From Actinospica robiniae DSM 44927 (GTDB taxonomy: Bacteria > Actinomycetota > Actinomycetes > Streptomycetales > Catenulisporaceae), in the NCBI RefSeq assembly GCF_000504285.1, contig NZ_KI632511.1, positions 2,105,372 through 2,169,371 of the forward strand: DNA of 64,000 bases, written 5' to 3'. Each line of letters begins with the position of its first letter. Position 1 is the first letter of the stretch. Both the position numbers and the translations under genes were made by a program. This document shows, one piece after another, positions 51,516-62,189 of the stretch. A model generated the notes under the pieces. It did not search any database. It saw nothing but the letters and a program-made list of their open reading frames with translations, and had not been told where the DNA came from.

Positions 51516-51640
51516 GCGCGCACCCCTCACCGGTCCGTGGAATCGCGACGGCCAGATGATAATAGCCCTGCCCGCGCGTATGGAAGCCGGAGATCCACGG
51601 CATCCGACCAAATCAGAGCCCTGTTACTGCGCCGCGGCTA

Positions 51641-51803
51641 GGGCGCGTTTGAGGAGTAGCGTCGGATCAGGCCGCGGCGTCTGACGCGTGCGCTCGCAAG
51701 GCGCCGGGTCGGGCGCATACTCGGCCGTCTGTAACCGAGCCGGCAACGCAGCGAGCGTGCGTGGCAGGCGTCGCGGCCCCGGCGATACTTCTCAAACGCG
51801 CCC
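51641..51803. mobile_element. MITE-like element: 163-bp imperfect palindrome with 13-bp terminal repeats
   Basis: GGGCGCGTTTGAG at 51641-51653 and CTCAAACGCGCCC at 51791-51803 are perfect terminal inverted repeats. The two arms stay similar inward for about 50 bp (GAGTAGCG versus AAGTATCG, then GGCCGCG, CTG and CGCTCGC blocks), so the whole element can fold on itself. It encodes nothing. Its right end supplies the last three codons and stop of the SDR gene. A copy of its left end with flank (GGCTAGGGCGCGTTTGAGG) occurs again at 55684-55702. The flanks do not show a clear target duplication. Confidence 0.7.
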
Positions 51804-52496
51804 GAGGTTTCGGTAGAGGGCTGCGACGCCGCCGGCGAGTCCGGCGCGGACCTGGCGGCTGACGTCGTCGGCGAGGATCTCCGGGTCGCCGGCGGCCAGG
51901 CCGTCGAGGGCGATGCGCGCGACGTCGGACGGCTCCATCTTCTCCGCCTCCACGTGCCGGGCCAAGTCAGTGTTCATGTAGCCGACGTGCAGGGCGCTGA
52001 CCTGCGTGCCCTGCGGGGCGAGCTGCTGGCGGAGCGCGTTCGTCAGCGACCATTCGGCGGACTTCGCGGCGCAGTAGGCGCCGGCTTCGGGCAGGGCGAG
52101 CCAGGAGAGGACCGACAGGACGTTGAGTATCGCTCCCCCGCCGTTGGCGGCCAGGTGCGGGGCGAAGGCCCGGCTCATGGCGAGGGTGCCGAAGTAGTGC
52201 GTGCGCATCTCCAGGTCGATGTCGGCCAGGTCGCCGTGCAGGAGCGAGGCGCCGGTGGAGCTGCCCGCGTTGTTGATCAGGAGGCTGACGTCGCCGAGTT
52301 CGGCGGCCACGCGGGCGACTTGAGCGTGGTCGGTGATGTCGAGCTGGACCGGCGTGGCACCGGGCAGGTCGACGGTCCGCGGGTCGCGGGCCGCGGCGTA
52401 GACCCGGGCTCCGCGCTCGAGGAGCTGCCGGGCCAGGTGAGAGCCGAGGCCGCGGTTGGCTCCGGTGACCAGGGCGGTGGATCCTTCGATCTTCAT
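51792..52496 (-). CDS. short-chain dehydrogenase/reductase
   Basis: 234 residues: STALVTGANRGLGSHLARQL (cofactor loop), LLINNAGSSTGAS, AYCAAKSAEWSLTN (YxxxK). Typical classical SDR of unknown substrate. The last codons Gly-Arg-Val-stop are made by the terminal repeat of the MITE, so the natural C-terminus is probably slightly changed. ATG at 52496 has AAGGAAA upstream. It is followed upstream, on the same strand by 28 bp, by a DHA2 exporter and likely cotranscribed with it. Confidence 0.93.
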   Translation of the reverse strand: MKIEGSTALVTGANRGLGSHLARQLLERGARVYAAARDPRTVDLPGATPVQLDITDHAQVARVAAELGDVSLLINNAGSSTGASLLHGDLADIDLEMRTHYFGTLAMSRAFAPHLAANGGGAILNVLSVLSWLALPEAGAYCAAKSAEWSLTNALRQQLAPQGTQVSALHVGYMNTDLARHVEAEKMEPSDVARIALDGLAAGDPEILADDVSRQVRAGLAGGVAALYRNLGRV

Positions 52497-54598: not shown

Positions 54599-55609
54599 TC
54601 AGGGACGCCCGACGAGCGTGGAGCGGCGCACGACCAGCTCCGGCTGGAGCACGACCTGGCGGTGCTGGTGCTCGCCGGCGCCGTCGGTCTCCTCCAGCAG
54701 CATCTCGGCGGCGAGGCGGCCCATGGCGGCGGCCGGCTGGCGGACCGAGGTGAGCGGCACGGCCGCGGCGGAGGCGAACTCGATGTCGTCGTAGCCGACG
54801 ATGGCGATGTCGCGCGGCACGTTGAGCCCGGCGGCGAAAAGGGCCTGCAGCATGCCGAGCGCGAGCAGATCGTTGGCGCAGAACACTGCGGTCGGGCGAT
54901 GGGGCAGGCCGAGCAGCCGGGCGCCGGCGTCGCGGCCGGCGGCGACGTCGAGGGTCTCGGTGGGAAGCTCGGTGAGGGCTTCGGAGCCGAGGCCCGACTC
55001 GGCCAACACCGCCAGCGCGCCGGCCCGGCGGTCCCGGATCTGATGCAGGTGGGAGGGCCCGCTGACGTAGGCGATGTTGCGGTGGCCGGCGTCGAGCAGG
55101 TGACGCACCGCCAACGTGCCGCCGACGACGTCGTCGACCGACACCGAGCAGCCGCCGCCTCCCGCGCCGACCCGGTCCACCAGCACGAACGGTATGGCGT
55201 TGCGGCGCAGGCTCTGCACGGTCTGGCCGCTGTCGTCGGCGGGCGTGAGCAGGACGCCGCGCACCCGCTGCTCGGCGAACAGCGCCAGGTACTCGGCCTC
55301 CTCGCGTGCGCTCTGGTTGCTGTTGCAGACCATCACGCCCAGGCCGGCGCGGCGCGCGGTGCGCTCGGCGCCGCGGGCGATGTCGACGAAGAACGGGTTG
55401 CCCATGTCGAGCACGAGCAGCCCCATGATGCGGCTGTGCCCGGCCCGCAGCTGCCGGGCGTGCTCGCTGCGCACGTAGCCGAGTTCGGCGATGACGGCCT
55501 GGACCCGCTGGCGGGTGTCCGCGGCGACCGAGTCGGGACGGTTGATGACGTTCGAGACCGTGCCGACCGACACACCCGCGTGCCGCGCGACGTCCTTGAT
55601 GCCGACCAT
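54599..55609 (-). CDS. LacI family regulator, probably of the rhamnose genes
   Basis: 336 residues. HTH MVGIKDVARHAGVSVGTVSN, hinge YVRSEHARQLRAGHSRIMGL, then a sugar-binding periplasmic-binding fold (GNPFFVDIARGAERTARRAG, FVLVDRVGAGGGGC, FCANDLLALGMLQ, IAIVGYDDIEFASAAAVPLTSVRQP). ATG at 55609 is chosen over 55678 because the HTH starts there. It lies next to the rhamnose transport genes and is the natural candidate to bind the TGAAAC/GTTTCA palindromes between rhaT and rhaI. Confidence 0.9.
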   Translation of the reverse strand: MVGIKDVARHAGVSVGTVSNVINRPDSVAADTRQRVQAVIAELGYVRSEHARQLRAGHSRIMGLLVLDMGNPFFVDIARGAERTARRAGLGVMVCNSNQSAREEAEYLALFAEQRVRGVLLTPADDSGQTVQSLRRNAIPFVLVDRVGAGGGGCSVSVDDVVGGTLAVRHLLDAGHRNIAYVSGPSHLHQIRDRRAGALAVLAESGLGSEALTELPTETLDVAAGRDAGARLLGLPHRPTAVFCANDLLALGMLQALFAAGLNVPRDIAIVGYDDIEFASAAAVPLTSVRQPAAAMGRLAAEMLLEETDGAGEHQHRQVVLQPELVVRRSTLVGRP

Positions 55610-55683
55610 GGATACCTTCAGTCCGTCCTGCGTGCTCGATGCGGCGTAACGGCCCCCGCCTGGCCGTTTCGCTGCCATGTTAG

Positions 55684-55702
55684 GGCTAGGGCGCGTTTGA
55701 GG
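55684..55702. repeat. fragment of MITE terminus
   Basis: GGCTAGGGCGCGTTTGAGG, identical to 51636-51654 (left end of the MITE plus 5 bp of flank). No further element sequence follows. It overlaps the end of the collapsed rhaM and gives its TAG stop. Confidence 0.75.
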
Positions 55703-55835
55703 CCGCGCCGGGCGGGGCGGCGAGACGGAAGATCTCGGGCAGCGGGGCCATGGCGGCGTCGGGCGCGGTGCGCCTGCGCCGGTACTCGGCCAGACGCTCC
55801 GGCCGGATCTGCAGAGTGAAGCAGACTCGCTGCAC
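55686..55835 (-). pseudogene. rhaM: L-rhamnose mutarotase with a large internal deletion
   Basis: From GTG 55835 (GAGAGGG ribosome-binding site): VQRVCFTLQIRPERLAEYRR is the start of an L-rhamnose mutarotase, and APDAAMAPLPEIFRL its usual end, but the roughly 55 residues between them are missing, leaving about 49 residues instead of about 105. The tail (AAPPGAASNAP-stop) uses the MITE terminal repeat for its stop codon. The active site is lost, so it should not work. It sits after rhaS on the same strand behind a strong hairpin. Confidence 0.8.
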
Positions 55836-55860
55836 GATGATCGCCCTCTCAGATGTGGAT

Positions 55861-55894
55861 GCGCCGTCCCGGTGTGTCGCCACCGGGACGGCGC
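55861..55894 (-). terminator. perfect 14-bp hairpin after rhaS
   Basis: GCGCCGTCCCGGTG / CACCGGGACGGCGC with a 6-nt loop, 14 bp past the rhaS stop. It likely ends the transport operon or attenuates read-through into rhaM. Confidence 0.75.
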
Positions 55895-55907
55895 ACGGTC
55901 GGTGGAA

Positions 55908-57020
55908 TCAGAAGTTGAACTGGCCGATGTTGGATTTGTCGAACACGGTCGGCTGGCCGAGCGTCACCACGCCCTGCGCGCCGACGGTGAAGGAACCGAG
56001 GTCCCCGGCCGTGAAGGTCTGGCCCTGGGCGCCGGTGATCTGGCCGGAGGCGAGCGCCACGCAGGCGTACGCGGCGAGCTCGCCGAGCTTGGCCGGGTCC
56101 CACAGCTCGAAGGCCTGCACGGTGCCGTCGGTGACGTAGGCGCGCATGTCGTTGGGCGTGCCGAGGCCGGTCAGCAGGACCTTGCCCTTGTACTTCGAGC
56201 CGTCCAGGTACTGCGCGGCGGCCTTGATGCCCACCGTCGTCGGCGAGATGATGCCCTTGAGGTTCGGGTACTGCTGCAGCAGGCCCTGGGTTTGCTGGAA
56301 CGAGGTCTGCGCGTCGTCGTTGCCGTAAGCGATCTTGACTAGCTTCATCTTCGAGTACTGCGGCTTCTTCAGCTCGTCCTGCATGTACCCGATCCAGGTG
56401 TTCTGGTTCGTCGCGGTCTGCGCGGCGGAGAGAATGGCGATGTCACCGGTGTAGTCGAGTTCCTTGCCCAGCAGGTCCACCTCGGATCGGCCGATGTCCT
56501 CGGCGCTGGCCTGGGAGATGAAGATCTGCCGGCAGTCGGCGTTGGTGTCGGAGTCGTAGGTGACGACCTTGATGCCGTTGGCCATGGCCTGCTTGAGCGA
56601 GGTGCACAGGGCGCCCGGATCCTGGGCGGAGACGGCGATCGCGGAGACCTTCTGCTGGGTCAGTGTATTGACGTAGGAGACCTGGCCGGCGGTGTCCGTG
56701 GCCGAGGTGGTGCCGACTTCCTTGTAGGTCTCGCCCAGTGTCGTGAGCGCGGATTTGCCGCCGCCGTCCGAGATGGTGAAGTACGGATTGTTGACCTGCT
56801 TGGGCAGGAACGCCACGGTCAGCCCGGTCTTGGTGGCGGCGTTCGCGTTCGCCGAGGAGCTCGAACCGGCCACGGCCGCGGTGGACGCGGCGGCATCGGT
56901 CGAGCTCTTCGTCGCCCCGCTGCACGCAGACAGGCCCACAGCGAGCAGACCGCTTGCGGCCGCGGCCGCGAGCACGCGTGCCTTGACGGGGTGACCGCGG
57001 AACGGGTGAGCGTTGATCAT
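55908..57020 (-). CDS. rhaS: rhamnose ABC transporter substrate-binding lipoprotein
   Basis: 370 residues. Signal and lipobox: RVLAAAAASGLLAVGLSACSG (lipidated Cys); mature domain of the sugar-binding type I: LTVAFLPKQVNNPYFTISDG, AIAVSAQDPGALCTSLKQAM, VVTYDSDTNADCRQIFISQA, KGIISPTTVGIKAAAQYLDG. The context (two permeases, RhaT and rhaI) and the RhaS-like pattern VAFLPKQVNNPYF point to L-rhamnose. ATG at 57020 starts the lipoprotein signal; the longer frame is shadow. Last gene of the transport operon. Confidence 0.9.
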   Translation of the reverse strand: MINAHPFRGHPVKARVLAAAAASGLLAVGLSACSGATKSSTDAAASTAAVAGSSSSANANAATKTGLTVAFLPKQVNNPYFTISDGGGKSALTTLGETYKEVGTTSATDTAGQVSYVNTLTQQKVSAIAVSAQDPGALCTSLKQAMANGIKVVTYDSDTNADCRQIFISQASAEDIGRSEVDLLGKELDYTGDIAILSAAQTATNQNTWIGYMQDELKKPQYSKMKLVKIAYGNDDAQTSFQQTQGLLQQYPNLKGIISPTTVGIKAAAQYLDGSKYKGKVLLTGLGTPNDMRAYVTDGTVQAFELWDPAKLGELAAYACVALASGQITGAQGQTFTAGDLGSFTVGAQGVVTLGQPTVFDKSNIGQFNF

Positions 57021-57094: not shown

Positions 57095-58141
57095 TCAGGC
57101 TGTGGTCGCCGCGCCGGCCGGTAGGGCGGTGTGTGCTCGGCGGGCGCGGGCCGTGGCGATCTGCCGGGCGACGCGCGGGCCGAGGACGGAGATGACGAGC
57201 AGGACCCCGGTCACGACGATCTGTGATTGCGCCGAGACGTTGAGCAGGCTCATCACGTTCTGCAGGGTGCCGAGCAGGAACACCCCGGCGAGCGCGCCGC
57301 CGAGGGTGCCGCGTCCGCCGTCGAAGTCGACGCCGCCGAGTAGCACCGCGGCCACGACGGACAGTTCGAGGCCTGTGGCGTTGTCGTAGGTGGCGCTGGC
57401 GTAGTGCAGCACCCAGAACACGCCGGTGAGCGAGGAGACGAGGCCGGTGGCGACGAACAGCGACGCCTTGACCCGCTTGACGCGCAGCCCCGCGAACCAA
57501 GCGGCCTCGGGTGAGGCGCCGATGGCGAACACCGAGCGGCCGAAGCCGGTGGCGTGCAGGACGACGACGGCGATCACGGCCAGGACCAGCCAGGGGATCG
57601 CGGCCGTCGGGATGAAGCTGCCGCCGATCCGGCCGGAGCCGAAGTTCAGATAGGACTGCGGGAAATCGGTCACGGAGTTCGCGCCGAGCACGATCTGCGC
57701 GATTCCCCGGTAGGCGGCCATCGTGCCGATCGTCACGGCCAGGGAGGGCAGGCCGAGCCGAGTGACCAACAGAGCGTTGACGAGCCCGCACACGACGCCG
57801 AGTACCGCGCAGATCAGGATGATCATGTTGATGTTCATGCCGTCGTTCCACAGCGCGCCCATGACCGAGCCGGACAGTCCGACCGTCGAGCCGACGGACA
57901 GGTCGATCTCGCCCGAGGCCACCAGCATCGTCATCGGCAGCGCGATCGCCGCGATGGGCAAAGCGTTGCCGATCAGAAAGCTGATGTTCAGTGCATTGCT
58001 GAAGTCCCCGACGAACGCGTACGACGCGAGGATCAGCACGATCAGCAGAGCACTGACGACGGTGTCCCAGCGCACCGCGCCGCCCCATCGCCGCGCCGAG
58101 GCTGCCGGGCGGGTCACGGATGTCAGGGTCTTCTCGGTCAT
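57095..58141 (-). CDS. rhaQ: rhamnose ABC transporter permease (second)
   Basis: 348 residues, BPD_transp_2 family: WDTVVSALLIVLILASYAFV, ALPMTMLVASGEIDLSVGSTVGLSG (family signature), GLPSLAVTIGTMAAYRGIAQ, GGVDFDGGRGTLGGALAGVF. About ten membrane helices. ATG at 58141 overlaps the TGA of the preceding permease gene (ATGA), so they are translationally coupled. Assignment to P or Q is arbitrary. With the other permease it forms the membrane channel. Confidence 0.9.
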   Translation of the reverse strand: MTEKTLTSVTRPAASARRWGGAVRWDTVVSALLIVLILASYAFVGDFSNALNISFLIGNALPIAAIALPMTMLVASGEIDLSVGSTVGLSGSVMGALWNDGMNINMIILICAVLGVVCGLVNALLVTRLGLPSLAVTIGTMAAYRGIAQIVLGANSVTDFPQSYLNFGSGRIGGSFIPTAAIPWLVLAVIAVVVLHATGFGRSVFAIGASPEAAWFAGLRVKRVKASLFVATGLVSSLTGVFWVLHYASATYDNATGLELSVVAAVLLGGVDFDGGRGTLGGALAGVFLLGTLQNVMSLLNVSAQSQIVVTGVLLVISVLGPRVARQIATARARRAHTALPAGAATTA

Positions 58142-59175
58142 CGGGCGCTCCTCGCCGCTCGGGCCCGCTTGCGCAGCAGGTCGGCGATCCGCAGGGCCAC
58201 GACCCGGTCCACCGAGATGGCCAACAGCAGCAGGACTCCGTCGATCGCCTCGACCCACACCGAGCTGACGCCGATGGCGGGCAGGACGCTGTTGATGGAG
58301 GTCAGCAGCAGGGCACCGAGTGCGGCGCCGTAGACGCTGCCGGAACCCCCGGTGAAGCCGACGCCGCCGACCACGACCGCGCTGACCACGGTCAGCTCGT
58401 ATCCGGTGCCGGTGGCGGCGTCGGAGTAGCCGAACCGCGCCAGATAGAGCGCGCCGGCCAGACCCGCCAAAGCGCCGCACAGGATGAAGGCCCCGAAGAC
58501 ACGCTTGCGCGTTGCCACGCCGGCCAAGGCTGCTGCCTGCGGATTCGAGCCGAGCGCGTAGCACTCGCGGCCGCTGCGGTAGTTGCGCAGATAGTAGGCC
58601 ACTGCGATCAGCACGACGGCGGCGAGGATCGCCAGATACGGGATCGCCCAGATGCCGTCGTGCCCGAAGGTGGTGAACCCGGAGGGCAGCTGCGCCGCGG
58701 TGACCTCTCGCGAGCCGACCCACACCGAGTCGAGGCCGCGGATGATGTAGAGCGTGCCGAGCGTCACCACCAGCGAGGGAACCCTGCCGAGGCCGACCAG
58801 TAGCCCGTTGAGCACGCCGAACACCGCGCCTACGACGATCGCGATGAGCGCGGCGACGACGGGGCTGCCGCCGCCCTGCATATAGTCGCCGGCTGCGAAC
58901 GCTGAGACGCCGAGCACGGAGCCGACCGAGAGATCGACATTGCGAGTGATGACGACGACGGCCTCGCCGACCGCGACGAGCACGAGGACGGTCGCGTTGA
59001 GCAGCAGATCCTTGATGCCCTGCTCGGACAGGAAGGAGCTGTTGTCGATCTGCGTCGCCAGCAACATGAGTACGAGCACGGCGAGGATCGCCAGTTCGCG
59101 CATCTTCAGGACCCGATCGAGCAGGCTCGCGGGCGCTTGCGCCGCGACGTGCACGGGTTCGAGGGTGGCGGTCAC
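58138..59175 (-). CDS. rhaP: rhamnose ABC transporter permease (first)
   Basis: 345 residues, BPD_transp_2 family: [45 protein letters not shown] (signature), [43 protein letters not shown] at 59175 overlaps the RhaT stop (GTGA) and its own stop overlaps the next permease. Together with the second permease it makes the heterodimeric membrane part of the rhamnose importer. Confidence 0.9.
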
Positions 59176-60701
59176 GCGCCGCTCCTGTTCGTCGTTCCGG
59201 TGGCCGCGGCCATCACCGACTGCTCGGTGGCCTCGCTCCGGGGTATCTCGGCGCTGATCCGGCCCTCGTGCATGACCAGCACGCGGTCGGCCATGCCGAG
59301 GATCTCCGGCAGGTCGGAGGAGATCATCAGGACCGCGACACCGTCGGCGGCCAGTTGCGAGAGCAGCCGGTGTACTTCGGCCTTGGTCCCGACGTCGATG
59401 CCGCGGGTCGGCTCGTCCACGATCAGCACGGCCGGCTTGGTGGCCAGCCACTTGGCCAGCACCACCTTCTGCTGGTTGCCGCCCGAGAGGGTCCCGACCA
59501 GGTCGCCCAGCCGTGCGTACTTGACCTGCAGCTTCGTCGCCCAGTCGAACGCCCGGTCGCGCTCGCCGGTGCGGCTCATCAGCCCGGCTGTGGAGGTCTC
59601 CTTCAGCCCGCTCAGGCCGATGTTGCGCTCGATCGACATCTCCATCACCAGGCCCTGCGCCCGCCGATCCTCCGGCACGAGCGCCAGCCCGGCGGCCATC
59701 GCAAGGCTCGGTGACCCGGGTCGCAGGATCCTGCCGTCGACCGTCACGCTGCCGGCGTCCCACTTGTCGACGCCGAACACCGCCCGGGCGACCTCGCTGC
59801 GCCCAGCACCTACCAGCCCTGCCAGCCCGACGATCTCGCCACGCCTGACCTGGAAGGAGACGTCAGTGAACACGCCCTCCCGCGTCAGCCTGCCGACCTC
59901 CAACGCCACCGCGCCGACCGTCGGGTCGTGCTGCTTGGGATACAGCTCCTCGAGCGTGCGCCCGACCATCCGCTGCACCAGATCCGACTCGGTCAGCCCG
60001 GCAACCGGCTCGCTCGCGACGAACGAGCCGTCCCGCAGAGTCGTCACCCGCTGGCAGAGTTCGAAGATCTCCTCGAGCCGATGCGAGATGAACAGCACCG
60101 CCGCGCCTTGCTCGCGCAGCGTGCGCACCACCGCGAACAGCCGAGCCACCTCGCTGCCGGTCAACGCTGCGGTCGGCTCGTCCATGATCAGCACCCCGGC
60201 ATCGAAAGACAGGGCCTTGGCGATCTCCACGAGCTGCTGGTCCGCGATCGACAGGCCGCGAGCGGGCCGGTCCGGATCCATGTCCACGCCCAGGCGGACG
60301 AAGAGCGACGCAGCTGCCTTATATACCGCGCGATGGTCGACCCGGCCGAACGAGCGCTTCGGCTGGCGGCCCATGAAGATGTTCTCGGCGACGGAGAGGT
60401 CGGGGAAGAGCGTCGGCTCCTGGTAGATCACGGCCACGCCGGCGTCGCGGGCGTCCGCGGGCCCGGCGAAGTCGACCGGCGAACCGTCCAGCAGCACGGT
60501 GCCCTCGTCCGGACGGTGCACGCCCGCCAGCACCTTGATCAAGGTGGACTTGCCGGCGCCGTTCTCGCCGGCCAGCGCGTGCGCCTCGCCGGCGTGGAGC
60601 TGGAGGGAGACCGCGCGCAGAGCGCGCACCGCACCGAAGGACTTGCTCACCCCCTCGAGCGCGAGGACCGGAACCCGCGGTTCCTGGTCGGCTGTCGTCA
60701 T
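59172..60701 (-). CDS. rhaT: rhamnose ABC transporter ATPase (two NBDs)
   Basis: 509 residues, sugar-importer ATPase with two nucleotide-binding halves. N-half: Walker [14 protein letters not shown], signature [16 protein letters not shown], Walker [13 protein letters not shown]-half: degenerate Walker [15 protein letters not shown], signature [16 protein letters not shown], Walker [15 protein letters not shown]. This RbsA/AraG-like pattern with the rhamnose context gives RhaT. First gene of the operon; an operator-like TGAAAT/GTTTCA palindrome is 42 bp upstream of its start. Confidence 0.92.
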
Positions 60702-60967: not shown

Positions 60968-61022
60968 TGACTCAGCGGGCGGAGTTCCCGCTGCCGCGGC
61001 CGCGTGACCGAGAAGAGTGAGC

Positions 61023-62189
61023 ATGTCTGACATACCGGCCGTGAAGGCGGCGCTGGCGGCGCAGGTGATCGAGACTCCGTCGTGGGGCTACGGGAACTCG
61101 GGCACGCGCTTCCGGGTCTTTCCACAGGCCGGTGTGCCGCGCGATCCGTTCGAGAAGCTGGCGGACGCGGCGGCGGTGCACGCGGTGACGGGAGTTGCGG
61201 CGCCGGTGTCGCTGCACATCCCCTGGGACAGGGTCGCGGACTACGGCAAGCTGGCTGAGCATGCGGCGGGTCTGGGTGTCCGGATCGGGATGATCAACTC
61301 GAACACCTTCCAGGACGAGGACTACAAGCTCGGCAGCGTCTGCCACCCAGACCCGCGTGTGCGCCGCAAAGCGATCGATCATCTCCTCGAGTGCGTCGAC
61401 ATCATGGACGCGACCGGGTCGGACTCGCTCAAGCTCTGGTTCGCGGATGGCACCAATTACCCGGGCCAGGACGACATCGTGGCACGGCAGGACCGGCTGT
61501 TCGAGGCGTTGACCGCGGTCTACGCGCGGCTGGGTGACGGTCAGCGGCTGGTGCTGGAGTACAAGCTCTTCGAGCCGGCGTTCTACTCGACGGACGTCCC
61601 GGACTGGGGCACCAGCTACGCACACTGCCTCAAGCTCGGACCGAAGGCGCAGGTCGTGGTCGACACCGGTCACCACGCGCCAGGGGTGAACATCGAGTTC
61701 ATCGTGGCGTTCCTGCTGCGGGAGGGCAAGCTCGGCGCGTTCGACTTCAACTCCCGCTTCTACGCGGACGACGATCTGATGGTGGGATCGGCGGACCCGT
61801 TCCAGCTGTTCCGGATCCTGCACGAGGTCGCGAAGAACGGCGGCTTCGACCCCGCCAAGGGCGTCGCGTTCATGCTGGACCAGTGCCACAACATCGAGGC
61901 GAAGATCCCTGCGATCATCCGCTCGGTGATGAACGTCCAGGAGGCGACGGCCAAGGCGCTGCTCGTCGACCTCGACACCCTGCGCGCCGCACAATCCGCC
62001 GGCGACGTGCTCGGCGCGAACGCCGTGCTGATGGACGCGTACAACACTGACGTGCGCCCACTGCTGGCGGAGGTCCGTCAGGAGATGGGACTGCATCCGA
62101 ACCCCTTGGCCGCTTACCAGGCCAACGGGTACGCGGCGAAGATCGTCGCCGAGCGGGTCGGCGGCAACCAGGCCGGATGGGGAGCATAA
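61023..62189 (+). CDS. rhaI: L-rhamnose isomerase
   Basis: 388 residues, TIM-barrel sugar isomerase of the L-rhamnose isomerase type found in actinomycetes and Pseudomonas: IGMINSNTFQDEDYKLGSVC, LKLWFADGTNYPGQDD, LVLEYKLFEPAFYSTDVPDW, VVVDTGHHAPGVNIEFIVAF, AFDFNSRFYADDDLMVGSAD. The metal-binding E/D/H pattern of these segments looks complete. It converts L-rhamnose to L-rhamnulose. ATG at 61023 with GAAGAG upstream. No aldolase gene follows, which is unusual. Confidence 0.95.
   Translation: MSDIPAVKAALAAQVIETPSWGYGNSGTRFRVFPQAGVPRDPFEKLADAAAVHAVTGVAAPVSLHIPWDRVADYGKLAEHAAGLGVRIGMINSNTFQDEDYKLGSVCHPDPRVRRKAIDHLLECVDIMDATGSDSLKLWFADGTNYPGQDDIVARQDRLFEALTAVYARLGDGQRLVLEYKLFEPAFYSTDVPDWGTSYAHCLKLGPKAQVVVDTGHHAPGVNIEFIVAFLLREGKLGAFDFNSRFYADDDLMVGSADPFQLFRILHEVAKNGGFDPAKGVAFMLDQCHNIEAKIPAIIRSVMNVQEATAKALLVDLDTLRAAQSAGDVLGANAVLMDAYNTDVRPLLAEVRQEMGLHPNPLAAYQANGYAAKIVAERVGGNQAGWGA

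Follow-up and report, generated by a model that had tools for sequence, protein, structure and literature searches.

Pseudogenes formed by internal deletion occur in operons where a redundant copy of the gene exists elsewhere. The closest described proteins to the short reading frame analysed here are those of the RhaM/YiiL/RhaU family (PF05336, TIGR02625; PDB 1x8d, 2qlx and 2qlw), and the available part of PMC3870299 gives the role of RhaM as the exchange between anomers of L-rhamnose. The frame shares with these proteins its first 22 and last 17 residues, its start position and its place in a rhamnose transport operon. It differs from them in lacking 66-67 core residues, among which are His22 and aromatic residues in between, all conserved, and in ending on ten foreign residues. 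We propose that the frame is very probably a dead rhaM: the operon gene, being redundant, would be in decay following the in-frame loss of its middle and damage by a mobile element. The portions of the literature available on rhaM pseudogenes, on MITEs in Catenulispora and on YiiL catalysis hold nothing on the present case.

The frame lies in a window of 64,000 nucleotides, by which we mean the whole stretch of DNA that was analysed. It has 49 codons, runs from 55835 to 55689 on the minus strand with its stop codon TAG at 55688-55686, and encodes the peptide VQRVCFTLQIRPERLAEYRRRRTAPDAAMAPLPEIFRLAAPPGAASNAP. The remnant and its neighbours are as follows.

54599-55609, minus strand: LacI-family regulator, counted from the first Met that gives the usual length; the open frame extends to 55678.
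55689-55835, minus strand: rhaM remnant with a GTG start; codons 1-22 are the start of RhaM, 23-39 its end and 40-49 an extension.
55767-55775, minus strand: deletion junction, codons 21-23 (AGG CGC ACC), where alignments place the loss of 66-67 codons relative to intact RhaM.
55860-55895, minus strand: hairpin with a perfect 15-bp stem, located between rhaS and the remnant.
55908-57020, minus strand: rhaS, rhamnose ABC transporter substrate-binding protein (TIGR02637, 441 bits, cut-off 342).
57095-58102, minus strand: sugar ABC transporter permease; no curated cut-off reached.
58138-59085, minus strand: sugar ABC transporter permease; no curated cut-off reached.
59172-60701, minus strand: sugar ABC transporter ATPase.
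61017-62189, plus strand: rhaI, L-rhamnose isomerase (TIGR02635, 619 bits, cut-off 531), beyond the transporter genes and on the opposite strand to them.

General-purpose protein models see little of this remnant. Its residues 3-21 match positions 1-19 of the Pfam rhaM model PF05336 (E 0.012), which covers 19 of 105 positions rather than a full-length domain and gives 16.3 bits against a curated cut-off of 23.4; the score in a whole-genome search is 12.9 bits, and NCBIfam, searched with the frame, yields nothing at E up to 1. A model of our own, made from 66 intact relatives (65 of the 67 rhaM-bearing loci described below, leaving out L171 and L198, plus the protein of the genus-mate G001) matches the remnant at positions 1-23 and 90-106, in order and in one frame. 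The full-sequence score is 31.8 bits (E 9.6e-9), with 21.4 and 10.9 bits for the two stretches; the runner-up in the same search of 1313 window stretches has an E of 1.9, and among 300 base shuffles of the 229-nucleotide spacer the top full-sequence score was 2.7 bits.

The first-pass annotation had described the frame as a rhamnose mutarotase reduced to its two ends, and this two-part match bears out the presence of the start and end of RhaM in one piece. Both ends of the remnant align to the 105-residue G001 protein and to the 106-residue copy of its own genome. The annotation had also put about 55 residues as lost in frame; the loss is indeed in frame, but as 39 codons of the remnant align to RhaM, 66 residues are missing relative to the G001 protein and 67 relative to the genome's own copy. 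The size of the gap is the one point on which that otherwise supported reading was misjudged, apart from the strand, which we correct to minus. A ribosome-binding site was said to be kept, which is plausible given the GAGAGGG located 8 nucleotides upstream of the GTG start.

What the deletion removed is the core of the protein. Model positions 23-89, absent from the remnant, hold most of the conserved core. His22, which we take to be the catalytic residue, is shared by 95% or more of the 66 relatives, with a histidine in line in E. coli YiiL, and is replaced by Arg in the remnant. No mutarotase activity would be expected of the remnant, because it lacks the conserved core.

The position of the remnant points to its origin. 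In the genus-mate G001 an intact 105-residue RhaM separates rhaS from a lacI-type gene; the window has this order too, with the remnant at the place of RhaM, and the flanking genes are similar (88% identity for the C-terminal part of rhaS and 86% for LacI). From this order we conclude that the window holds the operon's own rhaM, cut down to its ends. The G001 contig with the intact rhaM stops inside rhaS. The C-terminal third of rhaS is found at the ends of two G001 contigs (C3 and C30), which may reflect a duplication of rhaS together with a break in the assembly. In G002, the second genus-mate, rhaS finds no match at E 1e-60.

The slot is commonly occupied in related loci. Among the related rhaS loci examined, the best 80 of 477, a rhaM starts on the same strand within 1.5 kb downstream of rhaS in 67; 65 of these genes encode 106 residues, one encodes 122 and the last enters a masked region. 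The other 13 loci include those of Catenulispora pinisilvae, C. rubra and C. pinistramenti, and rhaM is absent from all seven loci of the genus Catenulispora (L093-L099) within the stretches fetched. In two of the 13 a different scrap of rhaM is found in the spacer between rhaS and the lacI-type gene: Streptacidiphilus anmyonensis (L130) retains model positions 61-88 (18.6 bits; top of 300 shuffles 5.8) and S. melanogenes (L133) positions 62-88 (18.5 bits; top of 300 shuffles 3.8). No piece of rhaM was detected with the 66-relative model in the remaining 11. The two Streptacidiphilus scraps may stem from a single event. As they differ from the piece in the window, loss in this slot recurs, and it is probable, in view of the window, these scraps and the loci with nothing in the slot, that rhaM has gone from it more than once.

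The 3' end of the remnant belongs to a different kind of sequence, which was earlier read as the terminus of a MITE. Two features of the window are relevant here.

51638-51806, strand not assigned: complete copy of a MITE-like element, 169 bp, with inverted ends; the same element as the terminus at the remnant.
55686-55701, plus strand: lone terminus (16 bp) of the MITE-like element; from it the remnant takes the final base of codon 45, then codons 46-49 and its stop TAG.

The genome hosts a family of such elements of about 169-170 bp, with inverted ends starting CTAGGGCGCGTTTGAG. The end of the remnant is an exact terminus of this multicopy short element, but comprises just 16 bp of one end. 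Nine of 23 distinct other ends agree with it over at least 16 bp (eight over exactly 16 and one over 17) and none beyond, while the others diverge sooner; the earlier claim of closure by a MITE terminus holds. The exact 16-bp sequence has 12 matches in the genome, including that of the remnant, against 0.006 expected from base composition. With two mismatches allowed, the 16-bp pattern loses specificity, as it matches 30 times and its reversed control 21 times, and the identity of the terminus rests on the exact 16-bp matches and on a 21-bp pattern whose control was zero. This 21-bp end, at up to two mismatches, is found in three of the 14 genomes of the family, one of them the window's own; both genus-mates lack it. 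No clear origin is apparent for codons 40-44 and the first two bases of codon 45.

A second terminus near the remnant was not found in 55401-56000 at up to five mismatches, so that a two-ended element is not present there. Among the matches listed, paired ends are about 170, 60 or 55 bp apart, and none of the pairs has a spacing of about 1 kb that would point to a parent transposon. Much shorter members of the family, 55-60 bp long, have these ends too, starting CTAG, and occur in the genome (G000, contig C1, 7873287-7873346, 7574411-7574470 and 5827919-5827973).

The hairpin between rhaS and the remnant is strong (-36.8 kcal/mol, z -5.4), and silencing of the remnant by this structure was considered. 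We reject the idea, since a strong hairpin also precedes the intact rhaM of G001 (-51 kcal/mol, z -6.5).

Loss of the operon gene need not have cost the cell its mutarotase. The genome has three PF05336 genes above the cut-off besides the remnant, and the best of them (G000:C1:4492429-4492737, at 4.49 Mb) reads as a complete 106-residue RhaM. It belongs to a second rhamnose set of about 11 kb (G000:C1:4492429-4503735), with a further LacI (73%), another rhaI (79%) and a RhaD-type aldolase-dehydrogenase (1073 bits) at 7-11 kb from the intact rhaM. The TIGR02625 scores of this copy and of the G001 protein, 67.5 and 70.9 bits, are both below the NCBI cut-off of 99.6, and we name the two RhaM by the Pfam cut-off and their context. 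The remaining two PF05336 genes seem to be of different sub-types and were left out as sources of rescue. At least one PF05336 gene above the cut-off is found in each of the 14 family genomes. In the available part of PMC4491342, whose species is unconfirmed as that of the window, rhamnose is mentioned only among whole-cell sugars.

With an intact copy elsewhere in the genome, the remnant resembles ordinary gene decay. Its internal deletion, the mobile-element scar at its end and the intact second gene are all features of pseudogenes by internal deletion; nothing notable sets it apart, and its deletion happens to keep the frame. The first-pass annotation had held that its reading would fail if a complete rhaM were present elsewhere and the piece were a different small protein: a complete rhaM is present, at 4.49 Mb, but the piece is rhaM reduced to its ends and no other small protein.

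The pN/pS between the remnant and G001 is 0.25 over 38 surviving codons, start codon excluded, and the medians for 65 intact relatives are 0.42 when G001 is the reference and 0.55 when the remnant is, in comparisons that involve few codons and shared references. The value for the remnant and G001 is no higher than between intact genes and so does not demonstrate relaxed selection. Most of the divergence would thus have built up under constraint, which suggests that the break of rhaM is probably recent.

The same low pN/pS could be taken to favour a different explanation, in which the 49-residue frame is expressed and has been retained as a micropeptide with a new role, e.g. binding intact RhaM or regulation in rhamnose use. 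The in-frame deletion, the start, the ribosome-binding-like sequence and the in-frame stop fit this idea, and they also speak against a dead gene, which need not have kept its frame over the deletion or retained such signals. Further points against a dead gene are the pN/pS, which does not demonstrate relaxed selection, and the fact that the remnant is seen in one genome only. However, one deletion in three would keep the frame by chance, a recent deletion would give a low pN/pS as well, and the last ten codons are foreign to rhaM and partly derived from a mobile element. Furthermore, all 49 residues are matched only in the window's own genome, and no other of the 14 family genomes has a full-length match to the peptide. 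We consider a functional micropeptide very improbable.

We give just as little credence to an error of sequencing or assembly, with an intact rhaM really present at the locus. What is missing is 66-67 whole codons, with no flanking repeats found, and the element end at the 3' end of the remnant is not something that a collapsed assembly would make. A search of 55000-56500 for repeats gave no pair closely bracketing the junction. The earlier suggestion of direct repeats flanking the deletion in an intact relative came down to a CGGC common to both breakpoint regions in G001, which is unremarkable in G+C-rich DNA, and the ancestral sequence may differ. Finally, a chance resemblance to RhaM, as might be read into the Pfam score below the cut-off and the lack of an NCBIfam match, is effectively refuted by the E-value of the two-part match, by the far lower scores of the shuffles and by a location in the very slot that rhaM occupies in relatives.

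The dead-rhaM reading suggests the following course of events. The ancestral operon would have had the order transporter genes, rhaS, rhaM and lacI-type gene. A deletion within rhaM, in frame and about 200 bp long, would have taken out the core of the enzyme. In what we infer to be a separate event, earlier or later, a MITE-like element would have inserted at the 3' end of rhaM and later been lost, save for the 16 bp that now provide the last codons and the stop. The remaining product would be at most a 49-residue peptide without the conserved core, its mutarotase activity presumably lost, judging by the sequence, and the RhaM on which the cell presumably relies is the intact one encoded at 4.49 Mb.

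For the purposes of annotation, the 49-residue frame is better labelled a pseudogene. In terms of biology, the locus is a clean, small example of gene loss that is tolerable through redundancy, in an operon slot that is empty in 11 and holds a scrap in two of the best 80 of 477 related loci.
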